A stretch of DNA of 64,000 bases. Origin: Salinicola avicenniae. GTDB taxonomy: Bacteria > Pseudomonadota > Gammaproteobacteria > Pseudomonadales > Halomonadaceae. The stretch covers positions 124,001-188,000 of the forward strand of contig NZ_JAKQZC010000001.1 of the NCBI RefSeq assembly GCF_023736115.1. Direction: 5' to 3'. Position 1 is the first letter of the stretch. Each line of letters opens with the position of its first letter. The position numbers and the translations under genes were made by a program. Under the pieces are notes generated by a model. It made no database searches. It was not told the DNA's origin and worked only from the letters and a program-made list of their open reading frames with translations. This document shows positions 16,057 through 52,417 of the stretch, piece by piece.

Positions 16057-17196
16057 TCATGTCGAGGACATCAGCGACTTGAAAGACTGTTTCAGCTTCT
16101 CTGTCTGGCGCCGGTAGGAGTAGTCCGTCACCCGGGTCGAGAGGACAGTGCCCAGCGCTTCCAGGTCGACATTGTCGAGCAGGTGCTGGAGCCGCTCGGC
16201 CCAGCCTTCGCTATCTCCGCTGTCGAGAATCAAGTCATCGTGCTCGCCCTCGAGCAGTTCGGCGGCACCCACCGTGCGAGAAAGCAGAACCGGCGTGCCG
16301 CAGGCCATGGCTTCCAGCGCCACACGCCCGAACTCCTCGATATGAGCGGGCAGCACAAAGACGTCCAGGGCTCCATAGAGCGTCTCGACGTCACTGACGG
16401 TCGAGCGCCAGAGGAATCGGTCGCCGATACCAGCCTGCTCGGCCTGTTGCTGATAGGCCGTGGCATCGTCCTTGCCCACCACCAGAAAACGACAGCGGCC
16501 GGGGCAGCGAGCTTCGAGTGCGGCGGCCATCTGGACGAACCCGGCCACGTTGCGCTTGGGGAAGTTGCCGGAGGTGATCAATCCGATCAGCCGCGTTTCT
16601 TCGTCGGCACCGAACTCCCGGCGGCGTGCGGTTCGGTCAGCCTGCGCTCTGGCCACATTGAAAGTGTCGGGATCGTAGCCCGGGTAACTGATCTCGATCT
16701 TGGCTTCGTCGATACCGTAACGATCGCGGAAATCCTCGGCCATCAGTCGAGAGTTGACCGCGACCTTCCGAAACTTGCCGCCACTCAACACATGATCGTG
16801 AATGGCGGCGACTTCCGAGAGTCGCGATGCGGTATCACCATGGATGAGCTGCGCGGCCAGGTGAACACAGTTGTGCATGTAGACCGTATCCGGCGTCTCG
16901 ACGTCACCGTGGCTGACCAGCAGCGCCGTGCCATGGCGTCGACACCAGGCCTGCACGCGTCGATTGAACCAGAACCGGCGAAAGGGTCCTTTGAACGGCC
17001 AACGCTTCAGACGCACGAGCTCAGCGCCGAAGTGTGTCGCTAGCTCCCGTCGGCCACGCTCGGCGAGAATCACCACCCGGTAACCGAGCGCTTTCAGCGC
17101 CACCGCCTGCTCGAACGCGTTGCGGCTGGCCCCGGTGCTTTTCTCGACCTGGCGAATGGCGATCACGGCCAGGGGCGCTTGGGAATCAGAGGACAC
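16057..17196 (-). CDS. Family 4 glycosyltransferase
   Basis: A 379-residue GT4 enzyme. Motifs: VEKSTGASRNAFEQAVALKALGY near the N-terminus, LIGLITSGNFPKRNVAGFV at the start of the GT4 domain, and EEFGRVALEAMACGTPVLLSR containing the EX7E donor site. The GTG at 17196 is preferred: AGGAAG lies seven bases before it and homology begins there. An open frame runs back to 17301. This start leaves 127 bp to the divergent Kdo kinase gene. The sequence recalls RfaG-type core glucosyltransferases, but the sugar cannot be assigned. Presumed LPS core assembly at the cytoplasmic membrane face. Confidence 0.87.
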   Translation of the reverse strand: MSSDSQAPLAVIAIRQVEKSTGASRNAFEQAVALKALGYRVVILAERGRRELATHFGAELVRLKRWPFKGPFRRFWFNRRVQAWCRRHGTALLVSHGDVETPDTVYMHNCVHLAAQLIHGDTASRLSEVAAIHDHVLSGGKFRKVAVNSRLMAEDFRDRYGIDEAKIEISYPGYDPDTFNVARAQADRTARRREFGADEETRLIGLITSGNFPKRNVAGFVQMAAALEARCPGRCRFLVVGKDDATAYQQQAEQAGIGDRFLWRSTVSDVETLYGALDVFVLPAHIEEFGRVALEAMACGTPVLLSRTVGAAELLEGEHDDLILDSGDSEGWAERLQHLLDNVDLEALGTVLSTRVTDYSYRRQTEKLKQSFKSLMSST

Positions 17197-24810: not shown

Positions 24811-25777
24811 GGTGTTGGTCTGGACTCGGGCCGGGGTGGTCGACATCACGTCCGCCTGCGTCCGGCACTTTCGGCGCCGGCCACGGCATATCACCGAGAT
24901 CCTGGCTAGGGTCGCGCGGGCCGGGCTCGGTTTCCGGTAAACAGGCTTGCAGAGCCTCACCGAGGCGCGCGAGCGCCTCGTCTCCCCGCGTACCCTGAAC
25001 GACGTCATCCCACCATTGGCGATGCACACCCCGCACCCGCACCGGAACGCTTGGCAAGCCCAGCCGCTGTGCCATCGCCAGACGGTGCAATCCCCGGTTG
25101 ATCTTCAATAGCCGGCCCTCGCGCGTCACCGCCACCCCAAGGTCATCCTTGCCCAGCTCGGCGTTGAATCCCTCCCGCGCCATCGCATCGAGAAAACCCA
25201 GGTAGGTCTCGAGATAGGCAAGTATCTTCGCCTCCGAATCGAGCAGCAGCCCCTGCTGGTAGGAAGACCAGGGCTTGCCCGCGCGCAGGCGCGACTGTAG
25301 CTGGCGAAAGCGCTCGGTGCGCGAAAGGTCGTCGCGATGCTCATCGAGATCACTGATGAAACGATAGCGCGAACCACGACGCAGGTCGCCTCGGCTCTGG
25401 TCCCACTCGCCCTCCCACAGGAAGGTGGACGAATTGGGCTTCTTCCCGCCGTTGCCCTTGGCATTGAAGTCTCGGATCAGGGAGCGGGGATTCACGTGAA
25501 GCACCAGCGCCTCGCCCAGGCGTCGTTCAATGGAACGCCTCGGCAGTCCACGACGCTCGATCCAGGCAGCTCCAGGGCGATCCTTCATCCAACAGCGAAA
25601 GAAGCGTTCCTCGACAGGAATGCCAATTCCCCGCTGGAACGCCTCGCGCAAGCCGGTCTGGAACCGAGCACGCCGCACACCCCACTTCATTCGTGGGTCG
25701 AGAAGCTCACGGAATGCCGTATCTTCAGCCGGTAGACGCGGCGAGGAAGATGGCGGGGAAGGCGAGGCTCGTGACAT
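24803..25777 (-). CDS. Hypothetical protein with ParB/sulfiredoxin-like segment
   Basis: A 324-residue protein I cannot name. The N-terminal third is Arg-rich. The middle has EWDQSRGDLRRGSRYRFISD and KPWSSYQQGLLLDS. Residues about 225-265 read VAVTREGRLLKINRGLHRLAMA followed by QRLGLPSVPVRVRG. That recalls the ParB-like nuclease fold, where a DGxHRLxAAxxLG helix precedes a PVRV strand. The C-terminal 45 residues are Pro- and Asp-rich. It sits in the LPS/glycan locus, converges with the OpgB-like gene (8-bp overlap) and is about 100 bp after the next glycosyltransferase start. The start is uncertain (ATG 25777 or GTG 25786). Similar proteins seem to accompany surface-glycan genes, but the function is unknown. 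Confidence 0.6.
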   Translation of the reverse strand: MSRASPSPPSSSPRLPAEDTAFRELLDPRMKWGVRRARFQTGLREAFQRGIGIPVEERFFRCWMKDRPGAAWIERRGLPRRSIERRLGEALVLHVNPRSLIRDFNAKGNGGKKPNSSTFLWEGEWDQSRGDLRRGSRYRFISDLDEHRDDLSRTERFRQLQSRLRAGKPWSSYQQGLLLDSEAKILAYLETYLGFLDAMAREGFNAELGKDDLGVAVTREGRLLKINRGLHRLAMAQRLGLPSVPVRVRGVHRQWWDDVVQGTRGDEALARLGEALQACLPETEPGPRDPSQDLGDMPWPAPKVPDAGGRDVDHPGPSPDQHLS

Positions 25778-30164: not shown

Positions 30165-31123
<959 letters not shown>

Positions 31124-31127
<4 letters not shown>

Positions 31128-33196
31128 GCATGGCAGCCAATACCCTACTGATCGAACTGGGCGTCGAAGAGCTGCCGCCGAGTGCCCTGAGCCAGCTCGC
31201 GACGGCGCTGCGCGACGGCGTCGTCAAAGGTCTGGAGACCGCCGGGGTCGCTTTCGACGAGGCCCGCGCCCTTGCCTCTCCGCGTCGTCTGGCCGTGCAT
31301 ATCGAGTCGCTTGCCGACAAGCAACCCGACCGGGAAGTCGAGAAACGCGGCCCGGCACTGGCGGCCGCCTTCAAGGACGGCCAGCCCACCAAGGCCGCCG
31401 AGGGGTTTGCACGTTCCTGCGGCGTCAGTGTCGAGGAACTCATCCACCTGGAAACCGACAAGGGCACCTGGCTCGGCTACCGCGAGCAGCAGACGGGCGA
31501 GGCAGTCGACCAACTGCTGCCCGGTATCATCGCCGATGCCGTTCATGCGCTACCCGTGCCCAAGAACATGCGCTGGGGCGCATCGCGCCTCGAGTTCTCT
31601 CGCCCGGTGCACTGGCTGGTACTGCTACATGGCGATCAGGTCGTGCCCGCCAGCGTACTGGGGCTCGACGCAGGACGCACCACCCGCGGTCACCGCTTCC
31701 ATGCGCCCGAACCCATCGAGCTGGCCCATGCGGGCGACTACGAATCGGCGCTCGAAAACGCCTATGTCCTGGTCGATCTCGAACGCCGGCGCGAACGCAT
31801 TCGCGAACAGGTGCTGGCGGAGGCCGAGGTGCATGGTGGCCAGGCCGTCATCGACGAGGACCTGCTCGAGGAGGTCAACGGCCTGGTCGAATGGCCGGTC
31901 GCGCTGACCGGCAGCTTCGACGAGCGCTTCCTGGAAGTGCCGGCCGAATGCCTGATCTCTTCGATGAAGGCCAATCAGAAGTACTTCCACCTGCTCGATG
32001 ACGCCGGCAACCTCAAGCCGCAGTTCATCACCCTCGCCAACATCGAAAGCGATGACCCCCAGCAAGTGATCTACGGCAACGAAAAGGTGATCCGCCCCCG
32101 TCTGGCGGATGCGGCCTTCTTCTACGAGACCGATCGCAAACAGACGCTGGAGTCGCGTCGACAATCGCTGGAAAACGTCGTCTTCCAGCAGCAGCTGGGC
32201 ACGCTGGCCGACAAGGCCGCGCGCAGCGAGGTCATTGCCCGCTTCATCGCTGAGAAAATCGACGGCGACAGCACGGCTGCCGCGCGTGCCGCCCAGCTGG
32301 CCAAATGCGATCTGGTCACCGAGATGGTGCTCGAGTTCCCCGAGCTTCAAGGCATCATGGGCACCTACTACGCGCGCCATGACGGCGAGCCGGAAGCCGT
32401 CGCCGAGGCGCTGCACGAGCAGTATCTACCCCGCTTCGCCGGCGATGCCATTCCGCAGACCGCCACGGGCCTGGCCATCGCGCTCGCCGACCGACTCGAC
32501 ACCCTCACCGGGATCTTCGGTATCGGCCAGCGCCCAACCGGCGCCAAGGACCCGTTCGCGTTACGTCGGGCGACGATCGGCGTACTCAATATCCTGATCA
32601 AGGGCGAGCTGAACCTCGACCTGCGCGAGCTTCTGGAACTGGCAGCGTCCCAGCACCGGGACCTCCCCAAGGCCGAAGGGTTAGTCGACGACGTTCTTGC
32701 CTACATGCTCGACCGCTTCCGTGCCTGGGCGCAGGACGAAGGGCTGCCAGTCTCGGTCTATCTCGCCGTGCGTGCGCGCCCCGTGACTCGCCCGCTCGAC
32801 TTTGCCCGTCGCCTGCACGCCGTGCACCGCTTCGAGCAGCGCGAAGAGGCCGCTGCCCTCGCCGCCGCCAATAAGCGTGTCTCGAATATCCTGGCCAAGC
32901 AGTCTCACGACGGCCGCACTGCCGTCGAAAGCGAGCGCCTCGTCGAGGATGCCGAGATCGCGCTGGCCAATGCCGTTGCCGACTGCCGTCAGCAGGTCGA
33001 ACCGCTGTTTCGCGAGGCGGCCTACGCGGAAGCACTCGACATTCTGGCCACGCTGCGTGCGCCGGTGGATCGCTTCTTCGACGAAGTCATGGTCGCGGTC
33101 GACGATGAAGCGATGCGTGCCAACCGCCTCGCGCTGCTGGCAAGCCTTCAGGCACTGTTCCTCGAAGTCGCGGACATCGCCGAACTGCAGCAGTAA
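31124..33196 (+). CDS. glyS: Glycyl-tRNA synthetase beta subunit
   Basis: The 690-residue beta chain (E. coli 689) binds tRNA-Gly and completes GlyRS. Typical features are [15 protein letters not shown] at the N-terminus, [19 protein letters not shown], the HD-like core region [21 protein letters not shown], and the C-terminal anticodon-binding helical domain ending in [14 protein letters not shown]. The start ATG overlaps the glyQ stop (ATGA), and GGGAG lies just upstream. A terminator follows at 33240. Confidence 0.97.
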
Positions 33197-33202
33197 TCCT
33201 GT

Positions 33203-33218
33203 GGTTTCACGTGAAACC
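33203..33218. promoter_or_regulatory. parS-like site 1 (14/16 match)
   Basis: GGTTTCACGTGAAACC, which matches the parS consensus TGTTTCACGTGAAACA at the 14 inner bases. It lies 7 bp after glyS in a perfect 20-bp palindrome (33201-33220). Confidence 0.75.
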
Positions 33219-33239
33219 ACCCTGGCGACTGTCGCCACC

Positions 33240-33265
33240 AAACACCCGGCCACGACCGGGTGTTT
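33240..33265 (+). terminator. Intrinsic terminator after glyS
   Basis: Stem AAACACCCGG / CCGGGTGTTT (10 bp) with a 6-base loop, then GCATTTC. The T-rich 3' arm and its place 44 bp after glyS fit a rho-independent terminator for glyQS. Confidence 0.75.
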
Positions 33266-33332
33266 GCATTTCAAGAACCGTCTTTGGGCCGCCATACCGT
33301 TAGGGAGCCACCTCCCCCTTGAAGAAGCCCAG

Positions 33333-33348
33333 TGTTCCACGTGAAACA
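33333..33348. promoter_or_regulatory. parS site 2 (15/16 match)
   Basis: TGTTCCACGTGAAACA. The only difference from the consensus is C at position 5, a variant common among chromosomal parS sites. It lies 130 bp from site 1, in the glyS-gmhB gap. The rest of that gap (about 33350-33560) shows no gene. Confidence 0.88.
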
Positions 33349-33563
33349 TTTACGCCGGGGTTCCGGCTCAAAAGGTATGGTTCTATCCCCCACCCCACTA
33401 TCTGCGACGATCTACCCAGTGCGATTCCCGAACTGACTTAGCCGAGCTGACTTGGCCGTCGACGCCCCGCTCTCATACGGTCTCCCACTAAACCGCCTGC
33501 TTTGCCAACCCCGACGCCGACCGGGATAATGCGTCTCGGCCCTATTCTCCAGATGGACCGACC

Positions 33564-34121
33564 ATGCCCAACGAACCCGGAATCGTCATACTCGACCGCG
33601 ACGGCGTCATCAATCGCGATTCGGATGCCTATATCAAATCTGTCGACGAGTGGCAGGTGCTGCCCGGCGCCATAGAGGCGATCGCACGGCTTTCACAAGC
33701 CGGCTGGCGCGTCGCGGTAGCCACCAACCAGTCAGGCATCGGACGCGGATACTACGACACGCAAACTCTTTCGCAGATCCATCGTCTGCTGGTTGCCAAG
33801 GTCGAGGCCGCTGGCGGTCAGCTCGAGCGCATCGAATACTGCCCCCACCTGCCGGATGCCGGGTGTCGCTGCCGCAAACCCAATCCCGGCATGCTGGAGC
33901 GGATACTTTCGGCGGTCGACCGGAATGCCGTACCGTGCTGGATGGTCGGCGACAGCCTGCGAGATCTTGAGGCTGGTCTAGCCGCGCACTGCCGAACCGC
34001 GCTCGTACTTACCGGCAATGGGAAGGCAACGCGGGACAAGCTGGACCGGCGCTTCACCGAGACCTGGATCTGCGACGACCTCCATCACTTCGCCACACGG
34101 CTGCTCAGCGCCTCTGACTGA
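33564..34121 (+). CDS. gmhB: D-glycero-beta-D-manno-heptose-1,7-bisphosphate 7-phosphatase
   Basis: A 185-residue HAD phosphatase, the size of E. coli GmhB (191). Motif I is VILDRDGVINRDS, motif II is VATNQSGIGRGYY, and motif III/IV is KPNPGML and MVGDSLRDLEAGLAA. The zinc-binding set Cys-x-His...Cys-x-Cys is visible in CPHLPDAGCRCRKP, diagnostic of GmhB. It removes the 7-phosphate during ADP-heptose synthesis, between the HldE kinase and adenylyltransferase steps. It follows glyS, as in pseudomonads, with two parS sites between them. Confidence 0.95.
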   Translation: MPNEPGIVILDRDGVINRDSDAYIKSVDEWQVLPGAIEAIARLSQAGWRVAVATNQSGIGRGYYDTQTLSQIHRLLVAKVEAAGGQLERIEYCPHLPDAGCRCRKPNPGMLERILSAVDRNAVPCWMVGDSLRDLEAGLAAHCRTALVLTGNGKATRDKLDRRFTETWICDDLHHFATRLLSASD

Positions 34122-34154
34122 CGTGCCTTGGCGGCCCCGTCGTGGTGACTGTGC

Positions 34155-34170
34155 TGTTTCACGTGAAACA
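34155..34170. promoter_or_regulatory. parS site 3 (perfect)
   Basis: TGTTTCACGTGAAACA, identical to the universal parS consensus, between gmhB and the AsmA gene and outside both coding regions. Confidence 0.93.
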
Positions 34171-34253
34171 TGGCGACTACCCGAAAGGCGAAGGAGGCAA
34201 AACGTCACCTCGTCTATCCTTGGAGCACAAGCCCAAGGGACGGGATCAACCTC

Positions 34254-36335
34254 ATGACACTCGGAAAGAAGATCGGCCTCGGCGCGCTGGCCGTTCTACT
34301 GATTCTCCTCGCCGCGCCTTTTGCGGTCGTGGCCTTCTATGACTGGAATGGCCTGAAGCCGCAAATCGAGGAACGTGCCTCTGCCACACTGGGGCGTGAG
34401 GTCGCCATCAGCGGCGATCTCGATATCGGATGGCAGTGGCCTTCTGGCGACAGTGGTTGGCGCCGCTGGGTACCCTGGCTCCAGCTGCACGCCGAACGTC
34501 TCCGCATCGGTAGCCCGGCGGCCCTCACCGACACCGATCTGGTCAATGCCGAGGCACTTTCCATCAGTTTCGCCCCTCTCCCACTACTAGATCGCAGGCT
34601 GTCGCTTCCGGCCATCACATTGCGAGGCGCCCAGGCCTCGCTGGTGCGGGTGGAAGATGGCAACAATAACTGGACGTTCGATCTCACCGGGGAAGATAAC
34701 GTGACCAAAGAGGAAGGCGCCGGAAACGAAGATAGCCAGAGCGGATGGACAGTGGACGTTGGCACGCTCGATTTCGATCCGATCGACATCGACTATCGTG
34801 ATGCCACGCTGGCAGCCGACATCAATGCCTCACTGGAACTGCTGGGTGAACCGATCGCCTTCGACGAGCTGACCGATCGCCAGGGCGTCGAGGCCGTCGC
34901 CGATCAACCGGTCGTCGACTACCGGTTCGGCTGGCAGGTCGAAGGCACCTATCAGCATCAGCCGGTGACCGGCTCGGGGCGTCTAGGCGGGCTCGCCGCA
35001 CTGCGCTCACCGGGTGCCCCCTACCCGCTGCAGGCCTCGCTCGAAGCCGGTGGTACACAAGTCGACATTAGCGGCACCTTGACCGACCCGTTATCACCGA
35101 AGCAGCTGAATCTCGACCTCGGCCTTTCCGGACGCAGTCTGGGGGATCTCTACGACATCCTCGGTGTCACCCTGCCCGAGACGCCAGCCTATGCTACCCG
35201 CGGCCATCTGACCGCCAACCTCGACACGCAGGAGGCGCTGGTATTCACCTACGATGACTTCGACGGCGAAATCGGCGAGAGCGACATCCATGGTCATCTG
35301 ACCTACCGTATGGGAGAGCCGCGTCCTTCGCTGACCGGCGAGGTCATCTCGAACCAGCTGCGATTTGCCGATCTCGCGCCGTTGATCGGCGCGGACAGCA
35401 ATGAAACCACTTCGCCCTCCAACGAGGAAACACAGGACGAAAGCCGCACGCAGCCGGCCGACAAGTTATTGCCCGTCAGCGAATTTCAGACGGCGCAATG
35501 GCGCACCATGGATGCTGATGTCACCTTCACGGCGGAGCGGATCGAACATGGCAACTCGCTGCCGTTGGAAGATCTCTATACACACGTGACGCTGAACGAT
35601 GGCGAAATTCTGCTCGATCCGCTTCGATTCGGCGTCGCCGGCGGCGATCTCAATACCACGCTGCGGCTCGACGGAAGTCAGACACCGATGCAGAGCCGGG
35701 TCGATATGCACATACGTCGCCTGCGTCTTGGCCAGCTGTTTCCCGACGTCGACATGATGGATGAGAGCCAGGGTGAACTGAATGGCGATGCGACCCTGAG
35801 CGGTAGCGGCAATTCCGTGGCCTCGGTTCTGGGCTCCAGCAACGGCAACCTGCAGATGCTGATCAGTGACGGCCGAATCAGTCAGAATCTGATGGAGCTG
35901 GCCGGCCTCAATGTCGGTAACTATCTGATCGGACAGCTATTTGGTGACGAGCAGGTCGATATCCATTGTGCCGCGACCCATCTTGAAGTCGAAAAGGGTA
36001 TCGCGCGGACCCGATTCTTTGTGATCGATACCGAGAACGCGCTGGTCCGCATATCCGGAACGGTCAATCTGGGCGATGAGACACTCGATCTGACCGTCGA
36101 GCCGGAGAGTAAGGGCGCTCGCATTTTTACGCTGCGATCCCCCCTTTACGTACGGGGTACGTTCAAGAACCCGTCACCCGGCGTCGATACCGGCTCGCTG
36201 CTGACCCGCGGGGCTGTCGGTGCCTTCCTGGGGACCGTCGCGGCACCGGCCGCCGGACTGCTTGCGCTGGTCTCCCCGAGCACCGACGAGACGACTCCAT
36301 GCAATGACTTCCTGAGTCAGCTGGAAACCGAGTGA
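34254..36335 (+). CDS. AsmA family protein
   Basis: A 693-residue AsmA-like protein. There is a short cytoplasmic N-terminus, one membrane segment (about 7-28, LGALAVLLILLAAPFAVVAF), then a long periplasmic beta-rich region. The typical AsmA start is FYDWNGLKPQIEERASATLGR followed by GDLDIGW. The conserved C-terminal AsmA_2 block has DMMDESQGELNGDATLSG and LRSPLYVRGTFKNPSPGVDTG. AsmA-like proteins are proposed bridge-type phospholipid carriers or outer-membrane maintenance factors. The ATG at 34254 starts the homology; the frame opens earlier, next to the perfect parS site. It is a single gene. Confidence 0.9.
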   Translation: MTLGKKIGLGALAVLLILLAAPFAVVAFYDWNGLKPQIEERASATLGREVAISGDLDIGWQWPSGDSGWRRWVPWLQLHAERLRIGSPAALTDTDLVNAEALSISFAPLPLLDRRLSLPAITLRGAQASLVRVEDGNNNWTFDLTGEDNVTKEEGAGNEDSQSGWTVDVGTLDFDPIDIDYRDATLAADINASLELLGEPIAFDELTDRQGVEAVADQPVVDYRFGWQVEGTYQHQPVTGSGRLGGLAALRSPGAPYPLQASLEAGGTQVDISGTLTDPLSPKQLNLDLGLSGRSLGDLYDILGVTLPETPAYATRGHLTANLDTQEALVFTYDDFDGEIGESDIHGHLTYRMGEPRPSLTGEVISNQLRFADLAPLIGADSNETTSPSNEETQDESRTQPADKLLPVSEFQTAQWRTMDADVTFTAERIEHGNSLPLEDLYTHVTLNDGEILLDPLRFGVAGGDLNTTLRLDGSQTPMQSRVDMHIRRLRLGQLFPDVDMMDESQGELNGDATLSGSGNSVASVLGSSNGNLQMLISDGRISQNLMELAGLNVGNYLIGQLFGDEQVDIHCAATHLEVEKGIARTRFFVIDTENALVRISGTVNLGDETLDLTVEPESKGARIFTLRSPLYVRGTFKNPSPGVDTGSLLTRGAVGAFLGTVAAPAAGLLALVSPSTDETTPCNDFLSQLETE

Positions 36336-36423
36336 GGAGACGGCAATCCACCAACTTGATGACCGTGCATGCCCCTGGCGAGGGCGGGGGCGCTATCGTG
36401 AATGCAGGAGATGTCATGTCGCC

Positions 36424-36439
36424 TGTTTCACGTGAAACA
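36424..36439. promoter_or_regulatory. parS site 4 (perfect)
   Basis: A second exact copy of TGTTTCACGTGAAACA, in the 188-bp gap between the convergent AsmA and hypothetical genes. Confidence 0.93.
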
Positions 36440-36462
36440 TGAGGTAGCCGATCAACCGGACC

Positions 36463-36490
36463 GCCACCGGGCAACATCTTTCCCGGTGGC
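36463..36490. terminator. Hairpin between convergent genes
   Basis: GCCACCGGG and CCCGGTGGC (9-bp perfect stem), 10-base loop CAACATCTTT. It sits between the AsmA stop and the stop of the leftward hypothetical gene. No T-run, so it may act as a weak bidirectional terminator. Confidence 0.45.
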
Positions 36491-36523
36491 TCGCCGCCGT
36501 TGGCAAACTCGAGAGCCAACGTC

Positions 36524-36943
36524 TCAGTCTGCGGCCGTCGCCTCGGCATTTCGATTATCGTCGTACTGCTTGCCGAGCGCATCCAGGGCCTGAATCAGCT
36601 TCTCGATTTCAGCATCGAACTTCTGCTGCTGCTGGTGATAGAAGTGACGTGTAAACGTCGCCCCTTTGTGCTTCTTGGCTAAGGTGGAGAACTGATCGCC
36701 CAGCTGCTCGGTGTGGTAGCGCAGCCGTTCGGAGAGGAATGACGAATGTCCCTGCCGACAGGCGACATCCATCAGGGCACGGACCTGGACGGTCAGTAGA
36801 TAGAGCTGCAACACGTTGCGCTCCTGCACCTCCCGCTGGGTGGAAACGCTGTCGTCGAGCAGGTTGATGGCACTCATCTCGCAGCAGTCGTTGTCGCGGG
36901 GCGAAGACGCTGACACCTGGGCGTATTTCTCTTGAGCGGACAT
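36524..36943 (-). CDS. Conserved-looking helical hypothetical protein
   Basis: A 139-residue protein, almost all helical by appearance, with heptad-like stretches (NVLQLYLLTVQVRALMDVAC, FDAEIEKLIQALDALGKQY). There is no signal peptide or membrane segment. Two adjacent cysteines (DNDCCEM) and one more at ACRQGH are present. The ATG at 36943 has AGGAGG ten bases upstream. An earlier GTG at 36964 would put that site inside the gene. It is next to a perfect parS site and converges on the AsmA gene. No family is recognised. Confidence 0.6.
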   Translation of the reverse strand: MSAQEKYAQVSASSPRDNDCCEMSAINLLDDSVSTQREVQERNVLQLYLLTVQVRALMDVACRQGHSSFLSERLRYHTEQLGDQFSTLAKKHKGATFTRHFYHQQQQKFDAEIEKLIQALDALGKQYDDNRNAEATAAD

Positions 36944-47802: not shown

Positions 47803-48888
47803 TCATTCCGGGTGCAGCCGCCCGCCGGCGAGTTGCGATGCCGTGACATCCGTGCCCGGCTGCCAGACGTCGGCCAGCGCCTCGCGATCGACGCTGGTGA
47901 TGAAGACCTGACAGCGGAGCTGCTCGAGCCACTGGCAGAAGATCTGCCGATGATGGCCGTCCAGCTCCGCCGGCAGATCGTCGATCAGATAGAGGCAGGT
48001 ACGCCCGCTCAACTGTTCGAGCAATCGCCCCTGGGCCAGTTTCAACGCACTGACCACCAGCTTCTGCTGACCGCGCGACAATACCTCGACCGCCGGGTGA
48101 CGGCCGACACGAATGCGCAGGTCGGCGCGCTGCGGCCCTTGCTGGGTAAAGCCCATCTGGCGATCGGTATCGCGACCGCTCTCGAAGACGTCGAGCAGCG
48201 CGCGTTGCCGATCCCAGCCACGTGAATAACGCAGGCGCAGATCGGGCAGCGGCAGCAGGGCCGACAGCGTCTCCTCGAACACCGGCAGAAAGCGGCGCAT
48301 GTAGGCTTCGCGCAGGCCGTCCAGATGCTCGCTCCAGTGCGCCAGTTCACGCTCCCAGACGCGTATCGACGCGACGTCGATTCTATCATGTCTGAGCAGG
48401 GCATTCCGATGTTTCAGCGCGCGTCGCGCACGCTTCCAGGCATCGAGAAAATCGCGCTCGGCGTGGAACACACCCCAGTCGAGAAACTCCCGCCGAGCCG
48501 CCGGCGCGCCCTCGAGCAAGCGGAAAGCATCCGGGTTGATCAGCTGCAGCGGCAGCGCCTCGGCCAGCTGTGCCAGACGTTCGGCACGCTCACCGCCGAT
48601 GCGCACCTCCAGCTCCTGGGTGTCGCGACGACGACGCACGCCGAGCGGCACCGGCGGATCGCCGGCAAGCCGCCCGTGAAGCGTCATCTCATCGCCCTCG
48701 TGAACGATCAGCGACTTGAGCTTCTGGGTACGAAAGGAGCGCGCCATGCCGAGCAGGTGAATTCCCTCCAGCAGCGACGTCTTGCCGCTGCCGTTGGCAC
48801 CGCTGATCAGATTGATATGCGGCCCGGGCGCCATCTCGAACGCCTCGAGATTGCGCAGGCCACGGAAGCTCAGCCGATCAAGCGGCAT
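47803..48888 (-). CDS. recF: DNA replication and repair protein RecF
   Basis: An SMC-like ATPase of 361 residues that helps RecOR load RecA at gaps. Walker A LISGANGSGKTSLLEGIHLL is near the N-terminus, signature VLSRGQQKLVVSALKLAQG near residue 270, and Walker B CLYLIDDLPAELD after it. A conserved RecF arm lies between. It is within dnaN-recF-gyrB; upstream there is a 186-bp gap with a hairpin repeat instead of the usual short spacing. Confidence 0.98.
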   Translation of the reverse strand: MPLDRLSFRGLRNLEAFEMAPGPHINLISGANGSGKTSLLEGIHLLGMARSFRTQKLKSLIVHEGDEMTLHGRLAGDPPVPLGVRRRRDTQELEVRIGGERAERLAQLAEALPLQLINPDAFRLLEGAPAARREFLDWGVFHAERDFLDAWKRARRALKHRNALLRHDRIDVASIRVWERELAHWSEHLDGLREAYMRRFLPVFEETLSALLPLPDLRLRYSRGWDRQRALLDVFESGRDTDRQMGFTQQGPQRADLRIRVGRHPAVEVLSRGQQKLVVSALKLAQGRLLEQLSGRTCLYLIDDLPAELDGHHRQIFCQWLEQLRCQVFITSVDREALADVWQPGTDVTASQLAGGRLHPE

Positions 48889-51784: not shown

Positions 51785-51829
51785 ACGACCTCACGCAATA
51801 TTCGAGAGATGAAAGAGAAACGGCTGCAC

Positions 51830-51860
51830 ATTGTAGCGTCGGCCGCCCAGGTTATCCACA
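51830..51860 (-). promoter_or_regulatory. dnaA promoter overlapped by a DnaA box
   Basis: Leftward -10 TACAAT (51835-51830) with -35-like TGGATA (51858-51853) at 17 bp. The -35 is inside the perfect DnaA box TTATCCACA (51852-51860), which fits DnaA autorepression. Confidence 0.6.
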
Positions 51861-52260
51861 CGAGGTCTCGACACCATCATGCTGTGGATAAACGGTCGAC
51901 AAGCCGTGCAGAAGATCGGGATAGCCTCGATAACATTCGATCTCAGCGTGCACCAGGCCAGTGCCGTTCGCCCACGTAAAACCCAGCCTTTGCACCACTA
52001 TTCCGCATCTTCCCCACAAGCTGAAAAACCCAACAACTCATTGAAATAGAAAATAAAAATGACTTATTAACAATTATTATCCCCATCGTTAGTCACATGG
52101 TAGGCGAGACAGATGCCACGGCCTCGCCAAAGTGACCGGAAGGGTTTTTCCCGGCTTGCCGACATCGGCCAGCCACCGAGACCGAGAAGACGTCGCGATA
52201 CCTCGAGTGTCGAATGGCGACAGCGGGCGGCGTTTCGCACACAACGGGGTGTGGATAATT
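51836..52260. other. Probable origin of chromosomal replication (oriC)
   Basis: The dnaA-rpmH gap holds three perfect DnaA boxes (TTATCCACA): 51852-51860 on +, 51883-51891 on -, and 52250-52258 on -. There is also a one-mismatch box TTATCCCCA at 52077-52085. An AT-rich stretch lies at about 52030-52080 (for example GACTTATTAACAATTATTAT), the likely unwinding element. Placement between divergent dnaA and rpmH matches the pseudomonad oriC. Outer limits are approximate, and no gene is seen in this stretch. Confidence 0.85.
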
Positions 52261-52270
52261 CACGGAAAAA

Positions 52271-52299
52271 TTGCACACGACCCGCGGATTCACTAGAAT
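52271..52299 (+). promoter_or_regulatory. rpmH promoter
   Basis: TTGCAC (52271-52276), 17-bp spacer and TAGAAT (52294-52299), about 120 bp before rpmH. It is just right of the last DnaA box. Confidence 0.7.
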
Positions 52300-52417
52300 T
52301 CCCGCTCTTGAGCCGAGTGAGCCCGGAAACCCTGTGCGTGTCGGGCATACCGTTTCGAACCTATTTCCTAAGCTATTTCAATAGCTTGAACACCCAACTA
52401 ATCAGGAAGCAGCAGCC

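Follow-up and report, generated by a model that had tools for sequence, protein, structure and literature searches.

Four palindromes, all in one 3.2-kb stretch of the Salinicola avicenniae chromosome, very probably constitute the parS array of a ParABS system, and with it the chromosome centromere. Judged from its sequence, the array is very probably an ordinary bacterial centromere of known type that marks where the Salinicola chromosome is pulled. This predicted main array of Salinicola is located in intergenic gaps, and the pair of sites found inside most other sampled gammaproteobacterial recF genes is missing. Coordinates refer to the window, the whole 64-kb stretch of DNA that was analysed. 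The array and its neighbours are as follows.

30848–33196, plus strand: glyS, glycine-tRNA ligase beta subunit (first-start open reading frame)
33203–33218: parS-like site 1, GGTTTCACGTGAAACC, a perfect palindrome with 2 mismatches to the consensus, 6 bp 3′ of the glyS stop
33333–33348, plus strand: parS site 2, TGTTCCACGTGAAACA, in the glyS–gmhB gap
33564–34121, plus strand: gmhB-type heptose bisphosphate phosphatase gene
34155–34170: parS site 3, TGTTTCACGTGAAACA, perfect, in the gmhB–asmA gap
34254–36335, plus strand: AsmA-family gene (predicted start)
36424–36439: parS site 4, TGTTTCACGTGAAACA, perfect, in the asmA–orf gap
36524–36943, minus strand: orf without a name, the right boundary of the cluster (predicted start)

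The predicted parS array

All four palindromes were found where the preliminary description of this DNA had placed them and, as it had said, in intergenic gaps, bounded by glyS, gmhB, the AsmA-family gene and the minus-strand orf. The glyS family match starts at residue 99 of the first-start open reading frame, so that the true start is later, and the mechanically first ATG of the AsmA reading frame (34170) touches the last base of site 3, the start of this gene being likely at 34254. A Pfam search of the right-boundary orf gave no match. Measured against the 16-bp palindrome TGTTNCACGTGAAACA, sites 3 and 4 are perfect, site 2 has no mismatches to this N-form on the plus strand and one to the strict palindrome, and site 1, with two mismatches, may be a weak parS.

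In the window, 11 strand-matches with up to three mismatches were found against 0.72 expected, and none of 100 shuffles reached 11. Given the base composition of the window, a perfect 16-mer is expected 2.7e-6 times per 64 kb, in agreement with the earlier claim that none should occur by chance in a stretch of this length, and 1.7e-4 times per 4.03 Mb, while two were observed in the genome. Searching the whole genome (4,027,897 bases in 11 contigs, 99.99% complete) with up to two mismatches returned five places, namely the four cluster sites and one more 57 kb leftward; four of the five are thus within 3.2 kb, a pattern of clustering and not of scatter. Scattered perfect copies, which had been put forward as evidence against a centromere, were not found in the genome, both perfect 16-mers being inside the cluster, and the reversed control pattern gave no match with up to two mismatches in the same genome.

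It might be argued that the palindromes serve their neighbouring genes as transcription terminators or operators and resemble parS only incidentally, as they occupy gaps at gene ends and site 1 follows the glyS stop so closely. We consider this very improbable and rejected it: the motif is common to unrelated places, since the same 16-mer recurs in gaps next to unrelated genes and within the recF reading frame of other genera, and its two perfect copies stand against a far smaller expectation. Nor did a search of 33000–36700 return any terminator-like match, and a separate hairpin (AAACACCCGG/CCGGGTGTTT, 33240–33266, read by eye) is the likelier glyS terminator.

Predicted segregation proteins

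A ParABS system with parAB outside the window had been predicted, and both parts of this prediction held. A single parB, whose absence would have spoken against the system, was found to the right of the window on the same contig, with a parA gene adjoining it, behind mnmG and rsmG (window coordinates):

75646–77541: mnmG, which with rsmG precedes parAB
78130–78993: parA, adjoining parB, Pfam AAA_31
79022–79939: parB, a ParB-family gene

The pair (78.1–79.9 kb) is near the predicted origin and on the contig of the cluster, parB being ~42 kb right of the last site. The whole genome contains one ParB-family match (TIGR00180). Its product has all three ParB Pfam domains, scores 194 bits against the NCBIfam ParB domain model (cut-off 58) and finds its best matches among solved structures in ParB proteins; against the NCBIfam nucleoid-occlusion (Noc) model it scores 225 bits, more than against the ParB model yet below the cut-off of 315. 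ParA matches Pfam AAA_31 well above the cut-off and the NCBIfam ParA model below it (125 vs 180 bits). In the helix-turn-helix of ParB, R179 and G207 correspond in position to R173 and G201 of Caulobacter, as located via the shared VGxSR and MGHAR motifs and not by residue alignment to the Caulobacter chain. The Caulobacter residues are reported to be conserved in ParB orthologs and altered in Noc (PMC7383237), and with this motif-based placement the ParB of this genome has the parS-type specificity residues. An SMC gene is also present in the genome.

By analogy with known systems, we infer ParB binding, segregation and SMC loading at the array. ParB dimers would load at the four parS sites, close into CTP-dependent clamps and slide into the flanking glyS–gmhB–asmA DNA, and the ParB at all four sites would join in a single partition complex. 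ParA, whose gene adjoins parB and is close to the likely origin near mnmG, would separate the two copies of the complex soon after replication, and the complex would probably also aid loading of the SMC condensin.

Location of the origin

The preliminary description had taken its oriC candidate from the following region.

51785–52300: gene-free region separating dnaA from its neighbours; three DnaA boxes, all perfect, at 51852, 51883 and 52250

Our analysis places the origin probably upstream of mnmG (~75 kb), beside parAB, instead of at dnaA (~52 kb), a conclusion drawn from skew in which we have fair, not full, confidence. The names rpmH, rnpA, yidC, mnmE and dnaN, and those of the atp genes, are ones that we take to apply.

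An origin beside dnaA, with the sites still being parS but 15–19 kb from it, has points in its favour. The dnaA side combines the three perfect DnaA boxes with an AT-rich block, against one perfect box before mnmG, where seven boxes with at most one mismatch are spread over ~400 bp; in one relative (G095) the densest DnaA-box cluster is at dnaA, and the Pseudomonas origin is located beside dnaA. We nonetheless regard it as unlikely in view of the skew in five species. Raw GC skew was negative from the left of dnaA up to mnmG in 5/5 species and positive over the whole examined stretch right of mnmG, again in 5/5, except that the first 20 kb right of mnmG were still slightly negative in G103; over the examined stretches, the cumulative minimum was displaced rightward from the mnmG start by 6.2, 1.1, 14.0, 6.3 and 6.2 kb. 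When gene direction was held apart by comparing third-codon-position skew between plus and minus genes, minus genes were the G-richer ones in all five species, in the dnaA–mnmG interval as well as left of dnaA, so that the left-arm sign extends to mnmG. To the right of mnmG this skew reversed clearly in four of the five (G000, G103, G101 and G095) and only levelled out in G077 (−0.092 plus, −0.102 minus). Because GC skew switches side at mnmG and not at dnaA, oriC beside dnaA is not supported.

With the origin near mnmG, the cluster is ~39–42 kb from the predicted oriC, measured to the mnmG box cluster, in a genome of 4.03 Mb. The distances of 15 and 19 kb given earlier are correct for dnaA, but dnaA is probably not where the origin lies; the placing of the centromere on the left arm stays right with either origin.

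Comparison with known systems

In Pseudomonas aeruginosa, ParB is reported to bind four parS sites close to oriC, of which two are in recF and two between genes, and a single one is enough for segregation (PMC4368675, PMC5521831). The Salinicola array resembles parS1–parS4 in comprising four near-perfect sites near oriC in a similar neighbourhood (recF, gyrB, glyS), and in the existence of further diverged sites elsewhere, as these reports and PMC3909081 describe them. It differs in that two sites are in recF there, whereas Salinicola recF is without them and all four sites are intergenic, and in that the nearest P. aeruginosa site is put at ~4 kb from oriC (PMC3909081), compared with ~39–42 kb from the likely origin here. 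The consensus TGTTNCACGTGAAACA is likewise that listed for Bacillus subtilis parS, the target of Spo0J (PMC7022226, Table 1), which also has several sites near the origin; the same source gives ten sites, eight of them in the origin domain, as opposed to five here (up to two mismatches), four of which share 3.2 kb.

The recF pair

The recF gene of most other genera in the family carries two parS sites, located at codons 140 and ~350 and separated by 630 bp; for P. aeruginosa, too, two sites inside recF are reported (PMC5521831, PMC3909081). In our literature search no title or abstract dealt with a recF parS pair outside Pseudomonas; the 2007 parS survey of Livny and others may describe it. 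The corresponding position in this genome is:

48455–48470, minus strand: recF codon 140, TGTTCCACGCCGAGCG, 4 mismatches to TGTTYCACGTGRAACA, not a parS

The rows compared are related, and the following counts are therefore not independent events: in a sample of 27 genomes taken evenly across the class, which yielded 23 recF genes above the family cut-off (22 minus this genome), the codon-140 site was within one mismatch of TGTTYCACGTGRAACA in 19/22 and within two in 21/22, and the C-terminal site in 16/22 and 18/22; in the family minus Salinicola the corresponding counts were 21/27 and 22/27 at codon 140 and 21/27 and 23/27 at the C-terminal site; and among 29 recF genes from 77 of 80 loci retrieved by similarity (L037–L039 were left out) they were 27 and 28, and 26 and 27. 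The recF of L038 (Marinomonas) has no site.

RecF contains FHVE or FHVK in 19 of the 22 proteins of the class sample. With recF genes picked solely for the protein motif FHV[K/E], parS was matched at all four codons in 22/22, 17/19 and 27/28 cases, while in the remainder of the same recF genes CAC, GTG, GAA and AAA account for ~0.3 to 0.65 of the codons of their kind. This fit beyond background codon use suggests that the DNA is kept, and not the protein alone. We rejected the possibility that a protein constraint on FHVE makes parS-like DNA by accident, because codon choice is more skewed at the motif than in the remainder of these genes. The FHVE/FHVK residues of most sampled gammaproteobacterial RecF proteins seem to owe their presence, at least in part, to the DNA being a centromere.

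Across 18 Salinicola genomes, 17 recF genes were examined and none has a site within one mismatch; at codon 140, G077 has two mismatches and all others have at least three, and the codon-350 motif is gone. Elsewhere in the family, neither site is within one mismatch in the single representatives of g17, g18 and g22, and one of the two falls outside this limit in the representatives of g7, g9, g15, g16 and g24 and in one of two of g3. In a recF tree, Salinicola lies within the site-bearing genera, beside genus g2, in which both sites are present; the tree is of a single gene, the Salinicola–g2 join has support of only 88/89 and several outgroup branches are long. Read most simply, the absence of the recF pair in Salinicola is a loss. 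With the RecF residues apparently lost together with the sites, the genus provides a natural experiment on the purpose of the recF position, which may be to keep the sites close to the origin or to let ParB act on the genes surrounding dnaA, recF and gyrB.

A fifth, asymmetric site

The remaining place found in the genome search is given below.

Contig C3, position 100577 (window coordinate −23423; 16577–16592 of locus L135): fifth, asymmetric parS-like site, TGTTTCACGGGAAACA

The gene that contains it is of the 2-oxo-tetronate/hydroxypyruvate isomerase type, and the site occupies the codons for VSRET. The isomerase has a match in 96/101 family genomes, and among the best-scoring 30 loci, which were those examined, the site is present with at most one mismatch in 7/9 Salinicola, 8/9 of genus g2 and 0/12 others. 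Among the matches listed, the form of the fifth site is found in none of G101, G102 and G103 and once in G104. The 15 site-bearing isomerase genes spell it GTT TCA CGG GAA ACA (10) or GTT TCC CGT GAA ACA (5), which are one double-stranded sequence in opposite orientations; G003 and G027, near each other in the recF tree, have it in opposite orientations. The 15 include neither perfect parS (TCA CGT) nor TCC CGG, the full C-C form, though each is one synonymous change from the isomerase-site spelling. On the basis of codon use in the remainder of these genes, VSRET would be spelt in this way with a chance of ~4e-5 per gene, the 15 genes not being independent cases because the rows are related.

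According to PMC10419367, P. aeruginosa ParB binds the single halves GTTTCAC and GTTCCAC, and the fifth site retains one half of this kind. Its other half resembles the Noc-binding site (NBS) as given in PMC7383237 in having the NBS C at position 6, but both halves keep the parS base at position 1: C is present in one half, A at position 1 in neither, and the Noc model, as noted, is below its cut-off. We rejected Noc or a second ParB as the reader of this site on account of the single ParB-family match in the genome; this match carries R and G residues of the parS type, and no other ParB-family protein that could read the site was found. In the most interesting reading, the fifth site would be a weak ParB site that has been selected. 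More tentatively, and less likely than not, an ancient gammaproteobacterial two-site recF centromere may have been erased in Salinicola, whose centromere is now on intergenic sites, while in Salinicola and its probable sister genus the isomerase gene, at ~100 kb from the origin, may keep a lopsided ParB site selected to stay weaker than parS.

Distribution among relatives

Each of the three gaps (glyS–gmhB, gmhB–asmA and asmA–orf) contains at least one site with at most one mismatch in 10/10 fully covered Salinicola genomes, that is, in this genome and the nine others, among 18, that cover all three gaps. In seven of the nine the stretch had been picked by site location and in two by the position of dnaA, so that the count shows which gaps are used and not how frequent sites are per genome. 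Site positions and numbers vary inside the gaps, so that conservation concerns the gap more than the individual base. In at least ten Salinicola genomes, among the matches listed and with both on one contig, the cluster is 43–54 kb from parB.

Across the family, a site within one mismatch occurs in 94/101 genomes. The other seven (G002, G022, G024, G026, G042, G054 and G076) have none within one mismatch of the strict palindrome; five of them belong to genus g3, and the recF genes of G002, G024 and G026 keep looser forms of the site.

Several relatives have an outlying parS-like site to the right, with two mismatches (L161 9583, L167 10177, L156 9970, L172 10132 and L164 10128). Among the matches listed, it is 62–116 kb from parB in G003, G027, G066, G077, G095, G102 and G104, and in both genomes examined (G077 and G003, the family being named for G003) the gene containing it is of the 2-oxoacid dehydrogenase E2 type. 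In the 244 kb of this genome examined with up to three mismatches, only the sites named above and a three-mismatch place at 25488 were found, and the open reading frames at the place matching the outlying site differ.

The layout is quite different in G017, where contig C12 (6635–88459, in part L146) has eight perfect parS over 82 kb and a recF without any. An additional gene, flanked by parS sites on both sides, separates glyS from gmhB in L169 (G103) and in L148 and L149 (G100, G001).
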